From positions 1-40,185 of the IMG/VR virus record IMGVR_UViG_3300007735_000721: DNA of 40,185 bases; one strand, given 5' to 3'. The DNA is from a virus. Under the pieces are notes generated by a model. It was not told the DNA's origin, made no database searches, and saw only the letters and a list, made by a program, of their open reading frames with translations. Both the position numbers and the translations under genes were made by a program. Below, piece by piece: positions 2,693 through 37,547 of this stretch (the stretch's first letter is position 1; the number at the start of each line of letters is the position of its first letter).

Positions 2693-3007
2693 CTAAGCGA
2701 CTTTAATCATCGCCTTCAAAACGGTCACAGCCGCTTGTACGGATTCCGGCGGTAATTTGTTTACCAGAAGCGTCAATTCGCTAGGGGCACCTGGAAGCCT
2801 GCCAATTAAGTCGGCCGGTTCGCACCCCAGAGCGTCGGCGAACGCCTCCAGGATCGGCTGTGAGTAGGGCTGCTCGCCCCTTTCAATGCGGGACACGGTC
2901 GGCTGGCTGACACCTACCCGCGAGGCAAGCTGCACAAGAGTCAACCCCCGGTACTTGCGCCACTCCCTTATGAAGACTCGTTTTGCCATGCCCATAAAAT
3001 GATGCAT
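2693..3007 (-). CDS. CI-like repressor, short helix-turn-helix protein
   Basis: The 104-residue protein has a Cro/CI-type helix-turn-helix at about residues 20-60: LTLVQLASRVGVSQPTVSRIERG, typical of the XRE family. It lacks a LexA-like self-cleavage domain, so induction is unlikely to be by RecA-driven cleavage. It faces away from a second helix-turn-helix gene across shared operators, as CI and Cro do. The start at 3005-3007 is chosen because AAGGGGG lies just upstream; ATGs at 2995 and 2989 and starts at 3022-3025 are alternatives. The SD lies in the loop of a potential RNA hairpin (3000-3024). Which of the two regulators maintains lysogeny is inferred from layout. Confidence 0.8.
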   Translation of the reverse strand: MHHFMGMAKRVFIREWRKYRGLTLVQLASRVGVSQPTVSRIERGEQPYSQPILEAFADALGCEPADLIGRLPGAPSELTLLVNKLPPESVQAAVTVLKAMIKVA

Positions 3008-3024
3008 CGCACCCCCTTGCATCA
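3000..3024 (-). promoter_or_regulatory. Hairpin over the repressor ribosome binding site
   Basis: In the leftward transcript TGATGCA (3024-3018) can pair with TGCATCA (3006-3000). The 11-base loop contains the SD AGGGGG, and the start codon straddles the loop and stem. Such a structure could make repressor translation dependent on protein or temperature, but it may also be chance. Confidence 0.4.
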
Positions 3025-3046
3025 AATATTCACTGGGTGTAATTAT
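3017..3046 (+). promoter_or_regulatory. Rightward early promoter pR
   Basis: TTGCAT (3017-3022) is a plausible -35. Possible -10 boxes are TGTAAT (3038-3043, five of six consensus bases, spacer 15) or AATTAT (3041-3046, spacer 18). Either puts the transcript start only a few bases before, or at, the cro ATG at 3054. The promoter is interleaved with the right operators. Confidence 0.55.
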
Positions 3047-3059
3047 TCACCCTATGAAA
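3028..3059. promoter_or_regulatory. Operator pair OR
   Basis: ATTCAC-TGG-GTGTAA (3028-3042) and ATTCAC-CCT-ATGAAA (3045-3059) have centres 17 bases apart and share the ATTCAC half-site of the left operator. The second covers the cro start codon. They lie between divergent regulator genes and overlap pR. Confidence 0.65.
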
Positions 3060-3263
3060 CTAGAAACCTACATCGCCCGTCAGGGCCTTACGCAAGCCGA
3101 GTTCGCTGAACTCGCAGATGTCCCGCAACCGACCATCAGCCGCCTGCTGACCGGGTACAGCCTTCGTCCCTCGTGGAAGACGCTGGCGAAAATCCATGCG
3201 GCCACCAAGGGCGCGGTCAGCGCGGGCGACTTCCTCAAGTCTCAACTTCAAGCAGCCGAATAG
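3054..3263 (+). CDS. Cro-like helix-turn-helix regulator
   Basis: The 69-residue protein is almost entirely one helix-turn-helix domain: LTQAEFAELADVPQPTISRLLTG at about residues 12-34. It is the first rightward gene, divergent from the CI-like gene, so it probably shuts off the repressor and early promoters. No Shine-Dalgarno sequence precedes its ATG; the upstream bases are operator and promoter, which suggests leaderless or near-leaderless translation. A GGGGGA nine bases before the next ATG links it to the DnaA-domain gene downstream. Confidence 0.85.
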   Translation: MKLETYIARQGLTQAEFAELADVPQPTISRLLTGYSLRPSWKTLAKIHAATKGAVSAGDFLKSQLQAAE

Positions 3264-3272
3264 GGGGAAAGT

Positions 3273-3773
3273 ATGAAAACGTACACTGACGAAATCAACG
3301 TAGCCGCCAATCTTCAGGACGAATGTGTGACAGGCGGCGGCATCAGTGCCAACGCGCGTTGTGAACCATATGCGCGGGGACTTTTGAAGCCGCAGTCTGG
3401 CGGGAACGATAACGCGGCGGCAATCGAAGGGTTGCAGACAAAACGCGCTCACATCAAGCATTTAATTGCGAAAGCCGCAGCCGATAACGGTGTCAGCTAC
3501 GAAGACATCATGAGCCGTGCTCGCCCGCAGAACATCTGCCGCGCCCGCTTCGATGCAATCGCTGCCGTGGCTAACGCTTACCCAGACATGAGCTTCCCGC
3601 GCATCGGTCGCATCTTCCAGCGGGACCACTCGTCAATTGTCCACGCGCTGATGATGCGCGGCGTGCAGCCGAGGTCGGGACGCATTCAGGAATACAAGAA
3701 ATTCGCTGCGTTAATGCAGCGGAGAGCGGTGGGGACCACAACAGAAGGAGAGACTGCACATGAAAATTCTTGA
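3273..3773 (+). CDS. DnaA domain IV (DNA-binding) protein
   Basis: This 166-residue protein contains the C-terminal DNA-binding domain of the chromosomal initiator DnaA at about residues 55-150. The diagnostic stretch is FPRIGRIF followed by RDHSSIVHA (117-125), matching DnaA's box-recognition signature (RDHTTV-A). The AAA+ ATPase and domain I are absent. The N-terminal 50 residues are unrelated and probably disordered. It may bind DnaA boxes or similar sites to control phage genes or steer host replication. It follows cro by nine bases with SD GGGGGA. It is a free-standing DNA-binding domain and not an initiator by itself. Confidence 0.85.
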   Translation: MKTYTDEINVAANLQDECVTGGGISANARCEPYARGLLKPQSGGNDNAAAIEGLQTKRAHIKHLIAKAAADNGVSYEDIMSRARPQNICRARFDAIAAVANAYPDMSFPRIGRIFQRDHSSIVHALMMRGVQPRSGRIQEYKKFAALMQRRAVGTTTEGETAHENS

Positions 3774-5040: not shown

Positions 5041-5787
5041 ATGACCTACGACCCCGCCGAGAACTCACGCAAGTCCTACGATGTGGCGATAGACGCCATG
5101 CGGGAGAAACTGGCCTCGTTCAGATGTGAGCGCATCCATGATGCGGTTCTTTACCAAGGTGATTGCAGGGAAATCCTGCCTTTGCTTCCAAAGGTGGATG
5201 CTGTGGTTACTGACCCGCCTTATGGGATCAATGCCGCGCGCGACCGCAAATCAGAGAAGTGGGGCTGGAAAGATTACGACGGTGCAGGCTGGGACAAGGT
5301 GCGCCCGTGCGATGATACGCTGCGCGCGGCATTCGGGGCGGCGAAGTCTTTGATTGTTTGGGGAGGCAATTACTTTTCCGACATCTTGCCCGCAAGCGAG
5401 CGGTGGTTGATTTGGGATAAGGGCCAGACGGATTTCTCATTGGCTGACGCCGAATTGGCGTGGTGCTCTGACGCTGGGGCTGTTCGCCGCCTGATGTACC
5501 CGCGCGCGACTGCACTGCAGGACGGCAAGGTCCACCCGACCCAAAAGCCGATTGCGGTCATGGAGTGGTGTCTTGGCTTCCTTCCGAAAGCCCGAACCAT
5601 CCTCGACCCCTTCATGGGTTCCGGCACTACAGGGGTTGCCTGTGCCAAACTAGGGCGGAAGTTCATCGGCATCGAACTTGAACCCAAGTATTTCGACATA
5701 GCCTGCAAGCGCATTGATGAGGCTTACCGTCAACCCCGGCTTTTCAAGGACGAACCACCCAAGCCAAAGCAGGAGGCGCTGCTATGA
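5041..5787 (+). CDS. DNA methyltransferase (N6-adenine or N4-cytosine type)
   Basis: The 248-residue enzyme shows the two core motifs in beta-class order: DPPYG at 58-62 (catalytic motif IV), then HPTQKP (165-170) and DPFMGSGTTG (189-198, AdoMet binding). It methylates an exocyclic amino group in DNA. With no restriction partner nearby it is an orphan enzyme, most likely protecting phage DNA or altering host regulation. The specificity cannot be read from the sequence. It overlaps the replication gene by four bases (ATGA). Confidence 0.9.
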   Translation: MTYDPAENSRKSYDVAIDAMREKLASFRCERIHDAVLYQGDCREILPLLPKVDAVVTDPPYGINAARDRKSEKWGWKDYDGAGWDKVRPCDDTLRAAFGAAKSLIVWGGNYFSDILPASERWLIWDKGQTDFSLADAELAWCSDAGAVRRLMYPRATALQDGKVHPTQKPIAVMEWCLGFLPKARTILDPFMGSGTTGVACAKLGRKFIGIELEPKYFDIACKRIDEAYRQPRLFKDEPPKPKQEALL

Positions 5788-6740
5788 GCAAACCCTGGCT
5801 ACGCCTTTACAGAGACGCGCTCTACAAGCCGAAGGTCGGAAGGCTGTCCCTTGAAGAGAAGGGCTTTTGGGCCGTGTGCCTGATGGCCTCCGATGACGAG
5901 GGCGGATTGCCATCAATACCTGATCTGGCGTGGACTTTGCGCCTGTCAGAACAAGACGTTTCTGCGCTCATGCTGACCCTCGACCGTAACGGACTCGTAA
6001 CGCGTTACGTAACGGGGAACGTAACGAAGTACGCGTTACACGATTGGGACGAACATCAGCGCAAATCTGACCATGATGACAGTGCGGCAGAGCGCCAGCG
6101 CAAATGGCGCGAGCGTCAGAAAGCCGAGAAAACAGCCATTGTTGAGCCTGTCACAGACCGTAACGCGTTACGTAACGGACCCGTAACGCCGCTAGATACA
6201 GATACAGATACAGATAAGAACAACATTATGTCCGGTCCAAGTGTACCGGACGGGTTCGAGAAGTTCTGGAAGGCATACCCGCGAACGCCCAACATGAGCA
6301 AAGTGGCGGCGCTCAAAGCTTGGCAGAAGCGCAAGTGCAGCCAACTTCCTCAAGACCAACTTCTTGACGCTGTCGCGAAATACAAAGCGTTCCTGGCGTC
6401 CGAATCCAAAAAGCGCGGCAAGGAATATCCGGCCAAGCACGCACAGGGCTGGATTTCCGAGCAACGCTGGGAAGGCTTCGTGGCCGAGGCCCCGCCGCGC
6501 CCCGAAGCACATAGCCCGGATTGGGCAGACGAAATCCCCCAGTGGTCAGCTTTCAAATCAAAACTACCAGCGAGTGAATGGCAGGCATGGTTCGCAACGA
6601 GCCATCCGAACGGTGCCGTCACGACCCTCGTTGCCCCAAGTCAATTTGCTGCCGAACAGGTGGCGGCAAGGTACGGGTCAAAACTAGAGGCCCATTTCGG
6701 TGAAGCGTTCCAGATCAAAACCAAAGGAGAACCACAATGA
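5784..6740 (+). CDS. Replication initiator with winged helix and DnaA domain I-like tail
   Basis: The 318-residue protein has three parts. Residues 1-90 form a winged-helix domain as in phage O/DnaD-like replication proteins (RLSLEEKGFWAVCLMAS, LRLSEQDV). Residues 158-232 carry the FWKAYPR...KAAW-type module of phage replication proteins. Residues 254-306 (WSAFKSKLPASEWQAWF, TLVAPSQFAAEQVAARY) resemble DnaA domain I, the helicase-loading and partner-binding domain. A linker (100-150) covers repeated GTAACG motifs that look like origin iterons. It probably binds the phage origin and recruits host helicase. The domain I match is by eye and needs a profile search. Confidence 0.8.
   Translation: MSKPWLRLYRDALYKPKVGRLSLEEKGFWAVCLMASDDEGGLPSIPDLAWTLRLSEQDVSALMLTLDRNGLVTRYVTGNVTKYALHDWDEHQRKSDHDDSAAERQRKWRERQKAEKTAIVEPVTDRNALRNGPVTPLDTDTDTDKNNIMSGPSVPDGFEKFWKAYPRTPNMSKVAALKAWQKRKCSQLPQDQLLDAVAKYKAFLASESKKRGKEYPAKHAQGWISEQRWEGFVAEAPPRPEAHSPDWADEIPQWSAFKSKLPASEWQAWFATSHPNGAVTTLVAPSQFAAEQVAARYGSKLEAHFGEAFQIKTKGEPQ
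5986..6218. other. Candidate replication origin: GTAACG iterons inside the initiator gene
   Basis: Ten copies of GTAACG or its complement CGTTAC occur in two clusters: 5986, 5997, 6003(-), 6009, 6021, 6034(-) and 6160, 6166(-), 6172, 6183. Some are paired as palindromes (GTAACGCGTTAC). They are followed by an A/T-richer stretch with three tandem GATACA units (6195-6212). The copies lie in two reading frames, so protein conservation does not explain them. An intragenic iteron origin is what lambda has in gene O. Confidence 0.7.
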
Positions 6741-6986: not shown

Positions 6987-7859
6987 ATGACAACTATCCA
7001 GCTAACTAGCACAAACGAAACTTGGCTTAACCGCCACATCCAGACATCAAAGTTCCGCCGCGTGTCTCTTGTCGGCATTACGGTCACGCCCGATTTGGCG
7101 AAGGAGATGCTGGCGCGCAACGAAGGCAACCGAGTCAAGCGCGTGGCTCATGTTGGCGCTCTCGCTCAGGCAATCAAAAGCGGTGATTGGATCGAAACGG
7201 GCGATACCATCAAGTTTGATACTAACGGTCGACTTCTGGACGGACAGCACCGCCTGTCTGCCATAATTCAGGCCAACACATCAGTTGTTGCTGACGTGGT
7301 CTTTGGGGTAACGCCAGAGGCGTTTGACCGAATTGACACAGGGATGGCGCGTACCCATTCGCAGATTTTGGCAATGGTCGGCATCAAAGACGGCCCACTG
7401 CTGACTTCCGCTACGCGCGTCCTGCTGGCCCTGAATCGCGGCCTGTCGCACGCCGGGAGTGTGTCGGCATCCAAGCACGAGGTGGTGGAGTTTATCAAGG
7501 CCAACCACGACTTGATTGCGTCAGCCCGCGTTGCTGAAAGAGTGAGAAAGGCGATTGGCCGAATTGCAAGCCCTGGCGGACTGACGGCGGCAGTGTACCT
7601 CATTAACAAGCGCGTCGGCACGGACATAACCCCATTTATTGACCAGCTTTGCTCTGGGGCGGGTCTGAATGCTGAAAGCCCAATTCTTGCCCTCCGCAAC
7701 AGATTTATTCGATCAAGTGGAAAGGCCAGAAACAAGATCGACGGCGTCGAGGCGACGGCCTTGGTCATCAAGGCGTTCAACGCATGGCACGAAGGACGCC
7801 CGATGAAGCAACTGTCTTGGCGGGTTGCCGACGAAGAGTTTCCGGTGGTGGGAGGCTAA
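6987..7859 (+). CDS. ParB-like nuclease-domain protein
   Basis: The 290-residue protein has the ParB/Srx-type core: ITVTPDLAKEML near residues 31-42, then a helix with HVGALAQAIKSGDWIETGDTI and the hallmark DGQHRL at 85-90. Residues beyond 100 are helical and may contact DNA. Phage proteins of this family are usually unlinked to ParA and may act as nucleases, CTP-binding switches or regulators, so partitioning is not implied. A strong SD (AGGAGG) precedes the ATG by six bases. It sits between the initiator and the presumed late regulator. Confidence 0.75.
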   Translation: MTTIQLTSTNETWLNRHIQTSKFRRVSLVGITVTPDLAKEMLARNEGNRVKRVAHVGALAQAIKSGDWIETGDTIKFDTNGRLLDGQHRLSAIIQANTSVVADVVFGVTPEAFDRIDTGMARTHSQILAMVGIKDGPLLTSATRVLLALNRGLSHAGSVSASKHEVVEFIKANHDLIASARVAERVRKAIGRIASPGGLTAAVYLINKRVGTDITPFIDQLCSGAGLNAESPILALRNRFIRSSGKARNKIDGVEATALVIKAFNAWHEGRPMKQLSWRVADEEFPVVGG

Positions 7860-7860
7860 T

Positions 7861-8133
7861 TTGCCCATTGAGTTCTGGAAAGCAAAAACCGGGTGGTTCT
7901 GGACCGCCCGGTCATCCAACGGGAAGGTCATATCCGACAGCGCGGAGATTTATTCCTCCCGCGCCAAGGCAGTGAATGGTGCAAAGGCAACAGCTCAGGA
8001 GTTCCGACAGTGGCAAATCGAAAGCGCAAGGAAGAGCCTCAAGAGTCAGATTTCGGGACGCCAGAAGCCCGCCGTCAAGCGTTCCACGTCATCGAGCAGC
8101 CAGATCCGGGCGACCGGGCGTCGAGGAGGGTGA
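7861..8133 (+). CDS. YegP/DUF1508-like small protein
   Basis: The TTG at 7861, preceded by GGGAGG at about 7850, starts a 90-residue protein. Residues 4-50 (FWKAKTGWFWTARSSNGKV, then YSSRAKAVNGAKA) match the YegP/DUF1508 fold, a strand-strand-helix unit of unknown function. The last 35 residues are a basic serine-rich tail. It starts two bases after the ParB-like stop. An upstream ATG at 7825 in the same frame overlaps the ParB gene and lacks a matching SD. Confidence 0.65.
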   Translation: MPIEFWKAKTGWFWTARSSNGKVISDSAEIYSSRAKAVNGAKATAQEFRQWQIESARKSLKSQISGRQKPAVKRSTSSSSQIRATGRRGG

Positions 8134-8135
8134 GG

Positions 8136-8519
8136 GTGGAGCAGGACATGGTGGAATGGTACTTGCGCAGAAACTACATCACCACTGTCCAGGCTGATGC
8201 GCTCAAGAAGTGGCAGGCCGATGCTTACCTTGCCGGGCTGATGCCAGCCTGTATCGGAGGCTACGGCCAGACCGTTAGCGGCGGAACGGCTGAGTTCAGC
8301 GACATGCGGGTAGCGGCTATCGCCCGACGGTCTAACGCCATCATTTTCCTCACCAACCTAAGCAAGCACGCTGTGCCTATGGTGGATGCGGTCGCGGTCA
8401 ATGGCAAATCAGCAGGCAGGTGGATGATGGAGCATGTCGGCGGATCTCCGCACGAGGCCATGCTGTGGCTTCAGAGATTCACGGATGCACTTGCCCGTCA
8501 CTTCGGGCTGACGCGCTAG
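8136..8519 (+). CDS. DUF6456-like protein, candidate Q-type late antiterminator
   Basis: The GTG at 8136 has a strong SD (GAGGAGG, six-base spacer) just after the preceding stop; it gives 127 residues. An alternative GTG at 8010 gives 169 residues but overlaps the previous gene by 124 bases. The product resembles DUF6456 proteins: WYLRRNYITTVQADALKKWQADAYLAGL near the start and LQRFTDALARHFGL at the end. As I recall, a DUF6456 protein (GafZ) acts as an antiterminator in the Caulobacter gene transfer agent system; this was not checked. The location, just before a promoter-terminator pair and the late genes, is where lambdoid phages carry Q. Confidence 0.6.
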   Translation: MEQDMVEWYLRRNYITTVQADALKKWQADAYLAGLMPACIGGYGQTVSGGTAEFSDMRVAAIARRSNAIIFLTNLSKHAVPMVDAVAVNGKSAGRWMMEHVGGSPHEAMLWLQRFTDALARHFGLTR

Positions 8520-8530
8520 GACAAATATCC

Positions 8531-8559
8531 TTGCGCAGTGAAAAGCTCTAATTCATAAA
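8531..8559 (+). promoter_or_regulatory. Candidate late promoter
   Basis: TTGCGC (8531-8536) and CATAAA (8554-8559) are separated by 17 bases in the intergenic space before the late genes. The boxes are moderate matches (four of six each). A terminator begins about 60 bases downstream, so the promoter would yield only a short RNA unless polymerase is modified. Confidence 0.45.
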
Positions 8560-8617
8560 CATGTCAGCGGTCGGACTGTGCATTGATTCGACCGCCTCTT
8601 CCTTTGTTGTGGGTGGT

Positions 8618-8652
8618 AGGGGTCTCGGCTTTGTCGGGGCCCCTTTCTTTTT
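8618..8652 (+). terminator. Terminator before the first late gene
   Basis: AGGGGTC (8618-8624) pairs with GGCCCCT (8638-8644), including one G-T pair, with an inner CGGC/GTCG stem. It is followed by TTTCTTTTT. It ends just before the SD of the first late gene (GAGGTG, 8653-8658), so transcription into the late operon must read through it. Confidence 0.75.
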
Positions 8653-8662
8653 GAGGTGCGCT

Positions 8663-9625
8663 GTGGCTGACAGAACCATTGTTCTCGCCCAGAACAAGCG
8701 CCATGCCGTCCGTGGCGTCACGGTCGTGAATCCGAGCGAGTTTTCCGCCGTTCACGAGGAAGACGACGACCTGACCTACATCGTGGACATGTCCAGCTAT
8801 CTGGACGGCGCGACCATATCCAGCGTCACCCGCACGGCGTCAGGCCCGACAGTTTCCAACACAAGCAACACAACGACCCGCATCACCCAAAGGCTCAAGG
8901 GCTTCGGCTATGTTGACTTCAAGGTCACGGCCTCAAGCGGTGATGTCGAGGAGTTCAGGCTTACAATCACCCCCCGCGCTTCACGGGTATCCACCCAGAT
9001 CGCACAGGTTCCCGACCCGATGCCATTAGCCACCACATCGACATCGGACCCGACATCAGCGGATGACACCACCCGAAACTTCTACCCTGGCTCTGTGTGG
9101 ATAAACACAGCATCCGGGAACATGTTTGACTGCGTCAGTAACGCCCAAGGCGCGGCAATCTGGAGGCACAGGCAGCGGGTTCTCGGACAGTCTGGCTCCG
9201 CTGTATTGGTAACAGGAACAACGTCAGAAACCGTTCTGGCGACCGTCACAATCCCCGCGAACGCTATCGGCGCTAACGGCCAGCTTCACATCCACACGCA
9301 CCGCCAGTTCAACAACGACGCATCCGGCAAGACATCCCGCATCCGCTTTAGTGGCATTTCAGGCACGGCCTACCGCGCCACTGCTGACGCAAGCACGGCG
9401 GGCATCTCTGACTACATCGTTATATCAAATGCCGGATCGACAAGTTCACAGGTCGGTGGACAGGCCAGCACAGGCAACGGCTTGGGCGTGGGCACCATCA
9501 CAACATCATCCGTAGACACGACCGCAGCAACAACGCTCGTCATCACGGGCCAACTAACGGACACAGCGGACACAATTACGCTCATGTCCTATCGCGTGGT
9601 CCTTACGCGCCCTGACATCACATAG
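8663..9625 (+). CDS. Phage structural protein, beta-rich C-terminal domain
   Basis: The GTG at 8663 with SD GAGGTG gives 320 residues starting MADRTIVLAQ. A longer frame from 8561 would run through the terminator and is rejected. Residues 1-120 look like a strand-rich N-domain (TRTASGPTVSNTSNTTTRITQRL). Residues about 150-320 contain FYPGSVWINTASGNMFDC, seen in phage fibre and tail proteins, followed by a jelly-roll-like, threonine-rich region. It is probably a virion or fibre component. Being first in the late operon, before the terminase, is unusual for a fibre. Confidence 0.7.
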   Translation: MADRTIVLAQNKRHAVRGVTVVNPSEFSAVHEEDDDLTYIVDMSSYLDGATISSVTRTASGPTVSNTSNTTTRITQRLKGFGYVDFKVTASSGDVEEFRLTITPRASRVSTQIAQVPDPMPLATTSTSDPTSADDTTRNFYPGSVWINTASGNMFDCVSNAQGAAIWRHRQRVLGQSGSAVLVTGTTSETVLATVTIPANAIGANGQLHIHTHRQFNNDASGKTSRIRFSGISGTAYRATADASTAGISDYIVISNAGSTSSQVGGQASTGNGLGVGTITTSSVDTTAATTLVITGQLTDTADTITLMSYRVVLTRPDIT

Positions 9626-20013: not shown

Positions 20014-20050
20014 GGGGGCTGGCTTCTTGCTGGCCCCTTTTCCTTTTCTT
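20014..20050 (+). terminator. Terminator after the capsid gene
   Basis: GGGGC (20015-20019) pairs with GCCCC (20033-20037), with an inner TGGC/GCTG stem that includes wobble pairs. A pyrimidine tract (TTTTCCTTTTC) follows. It lies between the capsid and decoration-like genes and would lower transcription of distal genes. Confidence 0.75.
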
Positions 20051-20509: not shown

Positions 20510-20515
20510 TGAGTT

Positions 20516-20554
20516 GGAGGGGGCGGGGTTACATCCGCCCCTTCCGTTTTCTTT
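20516..20554 (+). terminator. Strong terminator after the decoration-like gene
   Basis: GGAGGGGGCGG (20516-20526) pairs over 11 positions, with one G-T pair, with CCGCCCCTTCC (20535-20545) around an eight-base loop. TTTTCTTTC follows. It is one of the longest stems in the window. Confidence 0.85.
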
Positions 20555-23197: not shown

Positions 23198-24270
23198 TGG
23201 CTGAGAGGAACAAGCTAGCAAGCATCCCCGGCCAGCCTCTCCCGGAGCGCAAAGGGAACTTCCTGTCAGACCTGTGGGACGAGGCATCAGGCGCATTTGC
23301 CCGCTATGGCAGACGCTCAGGCGCGCAGCGTGACGCCTCGCTTGCCCTGATGAGCCAAGCCGCAGACCCGAACACTGACCCGCTTGCAGGTGCAGGAATG
23401 AAAGCCTTGGGCCTTGCGGGATTGGTGACACATCCGCTTGCGTTCTTCCCGACGCGCGAAGAGTGGGACCAGAGGCTGCAGGCGGCAGGGAATGACAGCC
23501 GCATCGGGCGTTCCATTGGCGGGTTTTTGTCAGACCTGCCAAACCTTATTGACCCGCAGATGGCGGCGGGCGGGGCTGTGTTCGCGACTGCGCCACTTGC
23601 GGCCAAGGCGCTGAACAAGGCAGATGATGTAGCGTCACTCAAGGCTTGGAGGCCACCAGAGATAAGGGATGTCACAGACAAGTGGGACACTGATGTGTAC
23701 CACGCCACTGGGAATATTTTCGACGAATTCAGGCCCTCTTACAGAGGGTCGTCTTTTTTTGGGGCAACCCCGGAGGCGGCTAAGAAGGGCGCTCAGGCTG
23801 GATGGGGCGACGGAACAGGTTCGGGGTCCTTGCACACAGTACATGCGCGCGTCCCATCTGAGGAAATTAGCGGGCTGGCCTTCACTCCAAAGGAACGCAA
23901 GTGGTTTAACGCGCTTCCTGATGTTGCGTCCGAAGCCGAGGTGGATGACCTGATGAAAAAGGCTCCATCAAACAAGATTCCCGCATGGTTTACCGTTTTT
24001 GATGAGGTGCAGAACGCTGACGGCACGTTCTCTTACGTCAAGAAGAAGGACGCTTGGAGAAAGTCCTACTCGGAAGCAAAAGCAGACGGGCGCAATGTTT
24101 ATGGCGAACTAGTCCCGCATTGGGGGCCGCAGTCTGACGAAAGCAAGTCTGCCAAGTGGGCGCTTGATGATGGCATGTCGGGCTACCTTGTCCAAGACGA
24201 GGCGGGGTTGACCGTCGCCATGTCTGACCCCAACAGAATTTGGATGCGCTCGCATAGCGGTGTGAAATGA
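23197..24270 (+). CDS. Putative virion-linked ADP-ribosyltransferase-like protein
   Basis: The 357-residue protein has a helical N-terminal part (1-150) with a hydrophobic alanine/glycine-rich stretch. A C-terminal domain (about 165-355) resembles the ART fold of polyvalent phage proteins: DVYHATGNIFDEF with His169, then a strand-helix SSFFGATPEAAKKGAQ (184-200), and a final strand with YLVQDE and LTVAMSDPNRI. Such enzymes transfer ADP-ribose to host proteins. It lies between gp10-like and collar genes, next to ejection proteins, so delivery with the virion is plausible. A hairpin plus seven T occurs within the gene (23734-23760). The NAD site was not verified. Confidence 0.6.
   Translation: MAERNKLASIPGQPLPERKGNFLSDLWDEASGAFARYGRRSGAQRDASLALMSQAADPNTDPLAGAGMKALGLAGLVTHPLAFFPTREEWDQRLQAAGNDSRIGRSIGGFLSDLPNLIDPQMAAGGAVFATAPLAAKALNKADDVASLKAWRPPEIRDVTDKWDTDVYHATGNIFDEFRPSYRGSSFFGATPEAAKKGAQAGWGDGTGSGSLHTVHARVPSEEISGLAFTPKERKWFNALPDVASEAEVDDLMKKAPSNKIPAWFTVFDEVQNADGTFSYVKKKDAWRKSYSEAKADGRNVYGELVPHWGPQSDESKSAKWALDDGMSGYLVQDEAGLTVAMSDPNRIWMRSHSGVK
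23734..23760 (+). terminator. Intragenic terminator-like hairpin with T7 run
   Basis: CCCTCT (23734-23739) pairs with AGAGGG (23743-23748) around a three-base loop; TCGTC and seven T follow. It lies within the ART-like coding region, just before the conserved SSFFGATPEAA. The T7 run could also permit polymerase slippage. It may throttle expression of the enzyme. Confidence 0.5.
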
Positions 24271-34955: not shown

Positions 34956-34982
34956 TCCGAATCGGTGCCTTTAACTGACGGG

Positions 34983-35016
34983 AGGGAGGCGGGCGACTGC
35001 CTCCCTTTCCCTTTTC
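34983..35016 (+). terminator. Terminator in the late region
   Basis: AGGGAGGC (34983-34990) pairs perfectly over eight positions with GCCTCCCT (34999-35006), followed by TTCCCTTTTC. It separates the structural-like gene from the holin/spanin genes. The pyrimidine tract is imperfect, so efficiency may be partial. Confidence 0.7.
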
Positions 35017-36470: not shown

Positions 36471-37547
36471 TTATTTCAGTGGCTTAGGTGCGTGTTTCCC
36501 AGAACGGGGTAAAAGTTTCCCAAATTCTGGTTCGCTTTTCGGCCCGATCAGGCGGTCTGCCGCGCCCTCTGCCAGCCGCTTCTGGTCAGCGTCCCGCGTG
36601 TACCGCTGGACCTCGCCAAGCGTCTTGTGACCCGTGATGGATTGGATTTCGTGGGCCGTGCATCCGGCGTTTGCTAGGCGGGTGGCCGCAGCTTTGCGAA
36701 GCCCATGAGCCGAGCAGGACTGAAGCCCCGCCTTCCGGCACGCAGCCCCGAACCAGTTCCCGAACCCTGCCGGGGTGAAGGGCTTTCCGTGAGCGGTTTC
36801 CAGATACGTCAGCGACCCGGTCGGCCCTGCCTCAATGGCTTGCCTCAGAGGCTCCACGATGGGGATGGTCAGGCGAACCCCGGTCTTGACCTGGCGGAAA
36901 GTGAGCGCCCCATTTGTGGCATGCTGCTTGCCAAGCCTCACCACGTCAGACCGTCTCTGCGCGGTGTACAGCAGCAGGGCCAAGGCCAGCCGCTCCCGCG
37001 TGCCCATAGGCCAGACGGTCTCAAACTTCCCCACGTCCTCATCCGTCCATGAGTGGAACCCGGTCGACTTCGTGCGGACCTTCTTCAGCCCTGCGGTCGG
37101 GTCTGACGCGAGCATCTCCCGAACCACGGCATAGCGGCAGACGTGACGGATAGCCCGCAGCATCATGTTGCTTGGCTCCGGCTTCAACTGATCCCGGATG
37201 GCAATGATGTTTTTCCGGGTCAGGACTTCCTTGGGCTTGTCCCCGTTCTTCACCCTGAGACGCTCCAAGGTGGCGCGATATTGCATCTGCGTGGCCTTGG
37301 ACAGAGAGCCATATTCAGGGCTGGTGTAGTAGGCGGCGAGCAGGGCAGACAGTGAGCCGGGAAGGGTACGTGATGCCCCTAGTTCCGCCTTCTCGTTTTT
37401 CCATTCCTGCCAAGCGGCGATGAACTCAGGCGAGCCGTACACCCCCGGCAGCATGATTTCAGGCTTGCCCTTGCCCCGCGCGCGCCACCTGATGCGCCCG
37501 TCCCGCCCCTTATGCTTTGACACGCCGGGGAAGTTCTTATCCCTCAT
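36471..37547 (-). CDS. int: Tyrosine recombinase integrase
   Basis: The 358-residue enzyme carries the full catalytic set: Arg198 (AQRRSD), Lys221 (QVKTG), His281 and Arg284 (HGLR), His307 (GHK) and nucleophile Tyr316 (VQRYTRDA). A SAM-like core-binding domain covers about 60-150 and an N-terminal basic DNA-binding part about 1-55. It integrates and excises the phage at an att site. The start codon overlaps the stop of a small upstream gene (ATGA). It is transcribed in the leftward operon. Confidence 0.93.
   Translation of the reverse strand: MRDKNFPGVSKHKGRDGRIRWRARGKGKPEIMLPGVYGSPEFIAAWQEWKNEKAELGASRTLPGSLSALLAAYYTSPEYGSLSKATQMQYRATLERLRVKNGDKPKEVLTRKNIIAIRDQLKPEPSNMMLRAIRHVCRYAVVREMLASDPTAGLKKVRTKSTGFHSWTDEDVGKFETVWPMGTRERLALALLLYTAQRRSDVVRLGKQHATNGALTFRQVKTGVRLTIPIVEPLRQAIEAGPTGSLTYLETAHGKPFTPAGFGNWFGAACRKAGLQSCSAHGLRKAAATRLANAGCTAHEIQSITGHKTLGEVQRYTRDADQKRLAEGAADRLIGPKSEPEFGKLLPRSGKHAPKPLK

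Follow-up and report, generated by a model that had tools for sequence, protein, structure and literature searches.

The best-described systems with which the present locus can be compared are those of lambdoid phages and of gene transfer agents (GTAs). Q of phage lambda binds in the spacer of its promoter, at the QBE. For phage 21, the complex engaged by 21Q was found arrested at +14 (PMC6606751). On the GTA side, GafZ, a homologue of the GafA C-terminal part, is an experimentally supported antiterminator whose binding element, the ZBE, lies between the −10 and −35 elements (PMC11150451), and homologues of GafA carry the annotation DUF6456 (PMC9638019). AlpA of Pseudomonas aeruginosa loads at a promoter element and enables RNA polymerase (RNAP) to pass a terminator located just downstream (PMC9371919). 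A GafA homologue was noted earlier in the free phage RDJL Phi 1 (PMC6363796); it corresponds to gp38 and lies beside the phage ctrA and early/replication genes. The sequence-only reading of the present DNA had suggested that the GTA mechanism would be extended to a free phage. Since GafA homologues in free phages had already been noted (PMC6363796), the novelty concerns the mechanism only. We consider it likely, judging from the sequences of the locus and its relatives, that the locus is a Q-type processive late antitermination module run by a divergent protein of the DUF6456/GafZ branch.

The window, i.e., the whole stretch of DNA analysed, is a 40,185-base IMG/VR virus record with a lambdoid and temperate layout. 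An XRE repressor-like gene (2693-3025, minus strand), a Cro-like gene (3054-3263, plus strand), an integrase-like gene (36471-37547, minus strand), and the spanin genes were named by eye from their sequences. The Cro-like gene is followed by replication and methylase genes and then by the Q-like gene (8010-8519, plus strand), which closes the lambdoid early operon in the position of Q. The late region 3' of it is a single long plus-strand block containing terminase, P22-type portal, major capsid, head closure, ejection, fibre, endolysin, and spanin-like genes. The first late gene (8663-9625, plus strand) has a GTG start and resembles a podophage fibre-tail adaptor (Gp77), with a match just under the cut-off. 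A DUF1508-like ORF (7861-8133) extends 124 nt into the 5' end of the Q-like gene in a different reading frame, as it does in three relatives (L009, L011, and L025), and upstream of it is encoded a PHROG 5931 protein (6987-7859, 290 aa) of nonannotated function with a weak ParB-like match. No partner resembling GafY, a protein with a DnaA-like HTH, was found beside the Q-like gene, where these two are the neighbours; the only DnaA-like ORFs in the window (3273-3773 and 5784-6740) lie further upstream and look replicative.

Searches of viral contigs returned approximately 20 relatives of the Q-like protein, the close ones with 80 to 88% identity and the rest with 53 to 61%. Their genes are spread over several phage backbones, several of them with different terminase modules. 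The relatives of the window phage are uncultured contigs, and no close relatives of the Q-like gene were found among the annotated phages in the collection when these were searched by protein and DNA. The homology to DUF6456 suggests that the hosts of the relatives are Alphaproteobacteria. The arrangement common to the approximately 20 relatives consists of the gene, the promoter, a conserved transcript start, a 5' hairpin, a terminator, and the first late gene. Small ORFs, which differ from one another and are moron-like, are inserted at the same site, downstream of the Q-like gene and ahead of its promoter, in L001, L005, L011, L025, and L172.

The start of the Q-like gene was assigned to the GTG at 8010, which is preceded by AGGAG and is equivalent in position to the start in the close relatives, where an in-frame stop lies just upstream of the shared start. 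The sequence-only reading had begun the gene at 8136; the gene is indeed present on the plus strand and ends at 8519, while 8136 is an internal GTG. The product is therefore a protein of 169 aa. Its description as DUF6456-like held as a remote link obtained by profile-profile alignment and not as a match to the Pfam HMM, since PF20057 (DUF6456) gave no match to the window protein at E≤10, and the best relatives reached only E=0.049, under the curated cut-off. The window protein had no family match in Pfam, PHROG, or NCBIfam, searches of these databases with single sequences gave no usable match, and no solved structure, Q proteins included, was matched among the PDB sequences (E≤10). A first scan of genome contigs for the Q-like family found none.

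The remote link was deduced from an HHalign comparison of 15 phage proteins with 24 alphaproteobacterial PF20057 loci, the genomes supplying the latter having been picked by their 16S signature. The phage profile aligned to DUF6456 with a probability of 91%, a score of 43.8, and 124 collinear columns across the domain, whereas 60 column shuffles reached at most 15.7 (probability of 0.6%) and the reversed controls about 12. A bridge was provided by L174, an alphaproteobacterial genome sequence that was matched by the phage profile at E=0.0036 and then at 2e-4, and by PF20057 at E=2.4e-10. Because HHalign scored above its controls and this bridge exists, the phage Q-like proteins are regarded as remotely homologous to the DUF6456 superfamily and as forming a divergent branch of it. 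The AlphaFold model of the Q-like protein was poor (pLDDT of 59); the fold comparison is therefore invalid, and the Foldseek matches were given no weight. A DUF6456 gene in L193 (MW462191.1), a freshwater contig labelled "bacteriophage," adjoins a sulfur acceptor (SufE-like) gene. Bacterial gafA shows synteny with a sulfur acceptor gene (PMC9638019), and given this gafA-type synteny, the L193 DNA may be bacterial.

The sequence-only reading had placed a promoter-like pair at 8531-8559 with a spacer of 17 nt. This pair is present, with a −35 element TTGCGC (8531-8536, plus strand), which most of the 17 aligned late promoters carry in the same position, exactly or with slight variation, and a −10 element CATAAA (8554-8559, plus strand; xAxAAA in most relatives) in which A-11 is invariant. 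Taken in the window alone, the pair has 8 of 12 consensus matches, which is at chance level, and it is absent from the promoter-scan list. The promoter is convincing only because the 17 aligned loci keep the pair with near-identical geometry: the spacers are 17 to 18 nt, and the distance from the −10 element to the AGYG start is exactly 6 nt in all 17. The spacer block GAAAAGCTCTAAT (8540-8552, plus strand) is backed by motif scans and, sitting where the QBE and ZBE do, is a candidate binding element. Within it, the CTA at 8548-8550 (−18 to −16) is invariant in 11 diverse promoters, the other invariant positions being A-11, A+1, G+2, G+4, G+8, T+12, and G+15. When the spacer was examined for a GafZ-type element, a conserved block CTCTAA containing the invariant CTA was found that differs from the ZBE palindrome, and no ZBE palindrome was seen at the late promoter.

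The most conserved block of the region is the initially transcribed sequence AGCGGTCGGACTGTGC (8566-8581, plus strand; consensus AGYGSNCGRAYTGCGT), and across the 11 diverse promoters the stretch from +1 to +16 outranks the promoter hexamers in conservation. The elemental pause consensus is GGn6TGYG, and it is matched by 8569-8580, which would place the RNA 3' end at +14 (8579). Among the 11 promoters, T+12, Y+14, and G+15 are fixed and G+13 is found in 10, while the G at −10 of the pattern is found in only 6. The pattern is common by chance (62 matches across the window versus 74 expected), and therefore the match in the window alone was dropped as evidence and only its conservation was counted. 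A full −10-like hexamer was not evident at the pause sequence. In the L217 sequence, the lambda pR' start has, by our own indexing, C16 and then G17, and ten positions earlier there is a G.

A hairpin beginning near +1 at the 5' end of the late transcript (8567-8595, plus strand; GCGGTCG...CGACCGC) is predicted in all relatives. Its energy is clearly below that of shuffled sequences in only some relatives, and for this reason the argument for the hairpin was taken from an arm-swap test. The arms covary, with each arm complementary to its own partner in 9 of 11 cases versus 3.9 expected on arm exchange (P=0.0003, uncorrected for relatedness). The leader body between this hairpin and the terminator is poorly conserved. 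To our knowledge, neither lambda Q nor CcGTA offers a counterpart to this covarying 5' hairpin or to the fixed start of the transcript.

A terminator just before the first late gene had also been claimed, and this was upheld by an intrinsic, tR'-like terminator at 8618-8652 (plus strand), whose stem (8618-8644) has 12 uninterrupted pairs and −20.1 kcal/mol and whose T-tract ends at 8652, 10 nt before the late GTG at 8663. In all 15 leaders (the window and 14 further), a terminator of varying sequence lies between +40 and +111, with 10 to 25 nt from the T-tract to the first late start codon. Since no separate promoter fits in this gap, a transcript derived from upstream must cross the terminator to enter the first late gene. 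The same order, with the gene directly upstream of the late promoter and then a terminator before the late genes, was found in the window and the 14 further leaders. An Rfam search of the leader gave nothing at the gathering score; a subthreshold match on the terminator was weak and was taken as chance. In five relatives (L025, L036, L039, L041, and L172), the first ORF past the late terminator encodes a lysine-rich peptide of the MAKKKKGKGC type, about 10 to 14 codons long and ending in Cys; this tiny ORF is absent from the window.

The further terminators proposed within the late region were borne out at three plus-strand sites. The first (20014-20038) lies just past the major capsid gene and has a counterpart in L215. 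The second (20515-20546) lies one gene further on, with the next ATG about 20 nt away, and counterparts of different sequence occur at the same junction in L210, L212, L213, and L215. The third (34980-35009) separates the spanin genes from a small late gene. Stems of at least 10 pairs with a T-tail numbered four on the plus strand and none on the minus strand of the window, all four in intergenic gaps; 40 dinucleotide shuffles of the window averaged 0.07 such stems per strand. A terminator-like site at 23732 was dropped, being weak and internal to an ORF.

The linkage of gene and promoter was assessed by scanning the viral contigs with a promoter-only pattern that is independent of the protein. 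This returned 22 contigs, and the Q-like gene was located upstream in all 21 that were testable; the remaining contig was excluded because its sequence upstream of the motif is just 423 bases long and holds another ORF. No contig bearing the promoter block and having upstream DNA present was seen without the Q-like gene. The linkage is kept where the terminase module differs (L025, L036, and L042). It also survives the unrelated small ORFs that intervene in L001, L005, L011, L025, and L172, so that the conserved block is more than the 3' end of the gene. The anatomy of the locus, its conservation, the gene-promoter linkage, and the remote homology to the GafZ superfamily were thus all observed.

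The Q-like protein probably does the job of Q of phage lambda. The late promoter is presumed to be constitutive and would by itself yield only a short leader RNA (approximately 8566 to 8652, about 87 nt) ending at the terminator. With the early operon on, its last gene (8010-8519) would supply the divergent DUF6456 protein, which would bind the CTCTAA block between the −35 and −10 elements while RNAP pauses promoter-proximally near +14. The protein would then load onto the polymerase and travel along with it past the terminators at 8618, 20014, 20515, and 34980, and this read-through would allow expression of the late operon of approximately 27 kb. DNA binding, pausing, loading, and read-through by the Q-like protein are the steps that we infer. 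The Q-like late control originally proposed for this locus is supported by the remote DUF6456 homology, the lambdoid layout, the spacer element, the terminators in 15 of 15 leaders, and the co-occurrence of gene and block in 21 of 21 contigs. Counted against antitermination are the failure of the window protein to match any family or solved structure, the lack of a GafY partner and of a ZBE palindrome, a pause sequence that has no full −10-like hexamer and whose pattern is common by chance, and the fact that terminators can leak without any factor.

The main rival is activation of initiation, whereby the protein would mainly activate the late promoter by recruiting RNAP to the weak −35 element (TTGCGC), and the terminator would only limit leakage. 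GafA has been described as an activator contacting RNAP omega (PMC9638019), and GafZ lifted a terminator-free gtaT reporter approximately 4-fold (PMC11150451); the −35 element is nonconsensus, and the conserved spacer bases would suit an activator site too. This explanation was nevertheless judged unlikely, as it leaves unexplained why all 15 leaders keep a strong terminator 10 to 25 nt ahead of the first late gene, why there are internal terminators, and why +1 to +16 is the best-conserved stretch. Much the same leader could belong to a leaky terminator that just ends the early operon, the late genes being expressed by basal read-through or from other promoters and the block serving, independently of the gene, as an operator or RNA element. 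Early/late boundaries often carry terminators, and in the window sequence alone the promoter falls short of significance, but there is no room for a promoter between the terminator and the first late gene, block and gene co-occur in 21 of 21 contigs of a protein-independent scan, and no block-bearing contig with upstream DNA was seen without the gene. We regard this explanation as very improbable.

The product of lambda pR'-tR' is a stable RNA, and by analogy the terminated leader of about 87 nt, with its 5' hairpin and terminator, might be a small regulatory RNA, the protein controlling something else. The covariation of the 5' hairpin would agree with this, but the leader has no Rfam match, the stretch linking its hairpin to its terminator shows poor conservation, and a small RNA would be compatible with antitermination rather than exclusive of it; a role of this kind in place of antitermination was deemed extremely improbable. 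A hybrid, which we regard as rather unlikely, can also be envisaged, in which a GafZ-type protein loads at the spacer during a consensus, non-sigma-dependent pause at +14, with the covarying 5' hairpin as a required RNA part of the complex. The mechanism would then be intermediate between that of Q, which is DNA loaded, and RNA-element antitermination.

If Q-type antitermination by the DUF6456 branch is right, a group of temperate phages uses as its Q a protein of the DUF6456 family, which is familiar from GTAs, and this would back the idea that GTA antitermination descends from a phage late-control switch. The system is compact, comprising a 169-aa protein and approximately 140 bp of DNA with invariant bases that are open to mutation, and it would allow GafZ-type loading, pausing, and read-through to be studied separately from GafY and IHF.

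Compared to the known systems, the locus shares with RDJL Phi 1 gp38 the presence of a DUF6456-type protein in a free phage, but the gp38 gene is not at a comparable late promoter and the sequences are far apart. The proposed loading at a promoter element and the passage of a terminator just downstream resemble AlpA; the family and biological setting are different, and no match was found in the family searches. With lambda Q and 21Q, the locus has in common the order of early operon, Q, late promoter, terminator, and late genes (pR'-tR'), a conserved promoter-spacer element, and a predicted promoter-proximal pause (+14 in the 21Q complex, PMC6606751). It differs in that the phage start is without a clear −10-like pause hexamer, and no sequence homology to these proteins was found in PDB sequences or the Pfam Q families at E≤10. 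Compared to GafZ of C. crescentus (CcGTA), the phage protein is below the Pfam cut-off and comes from a free temperate phage, and its spacer block is CTCTAA instead of the GCGCCCG-CTGGCGC palindrome at the ZBE. The phage terminator precedes the first gene whereas that of CcGTA follows it, and the phage has a distinctive 5' hairpin and conserved transcript start. What unites them is the remote homology across the domain to GafZ and to the C-terminal part of GafA from Rhodobacter capsulatus, together with action, predicted for the phage protein, at the promoter of the structural operon and a terminator inside that operon (PMC11150451).
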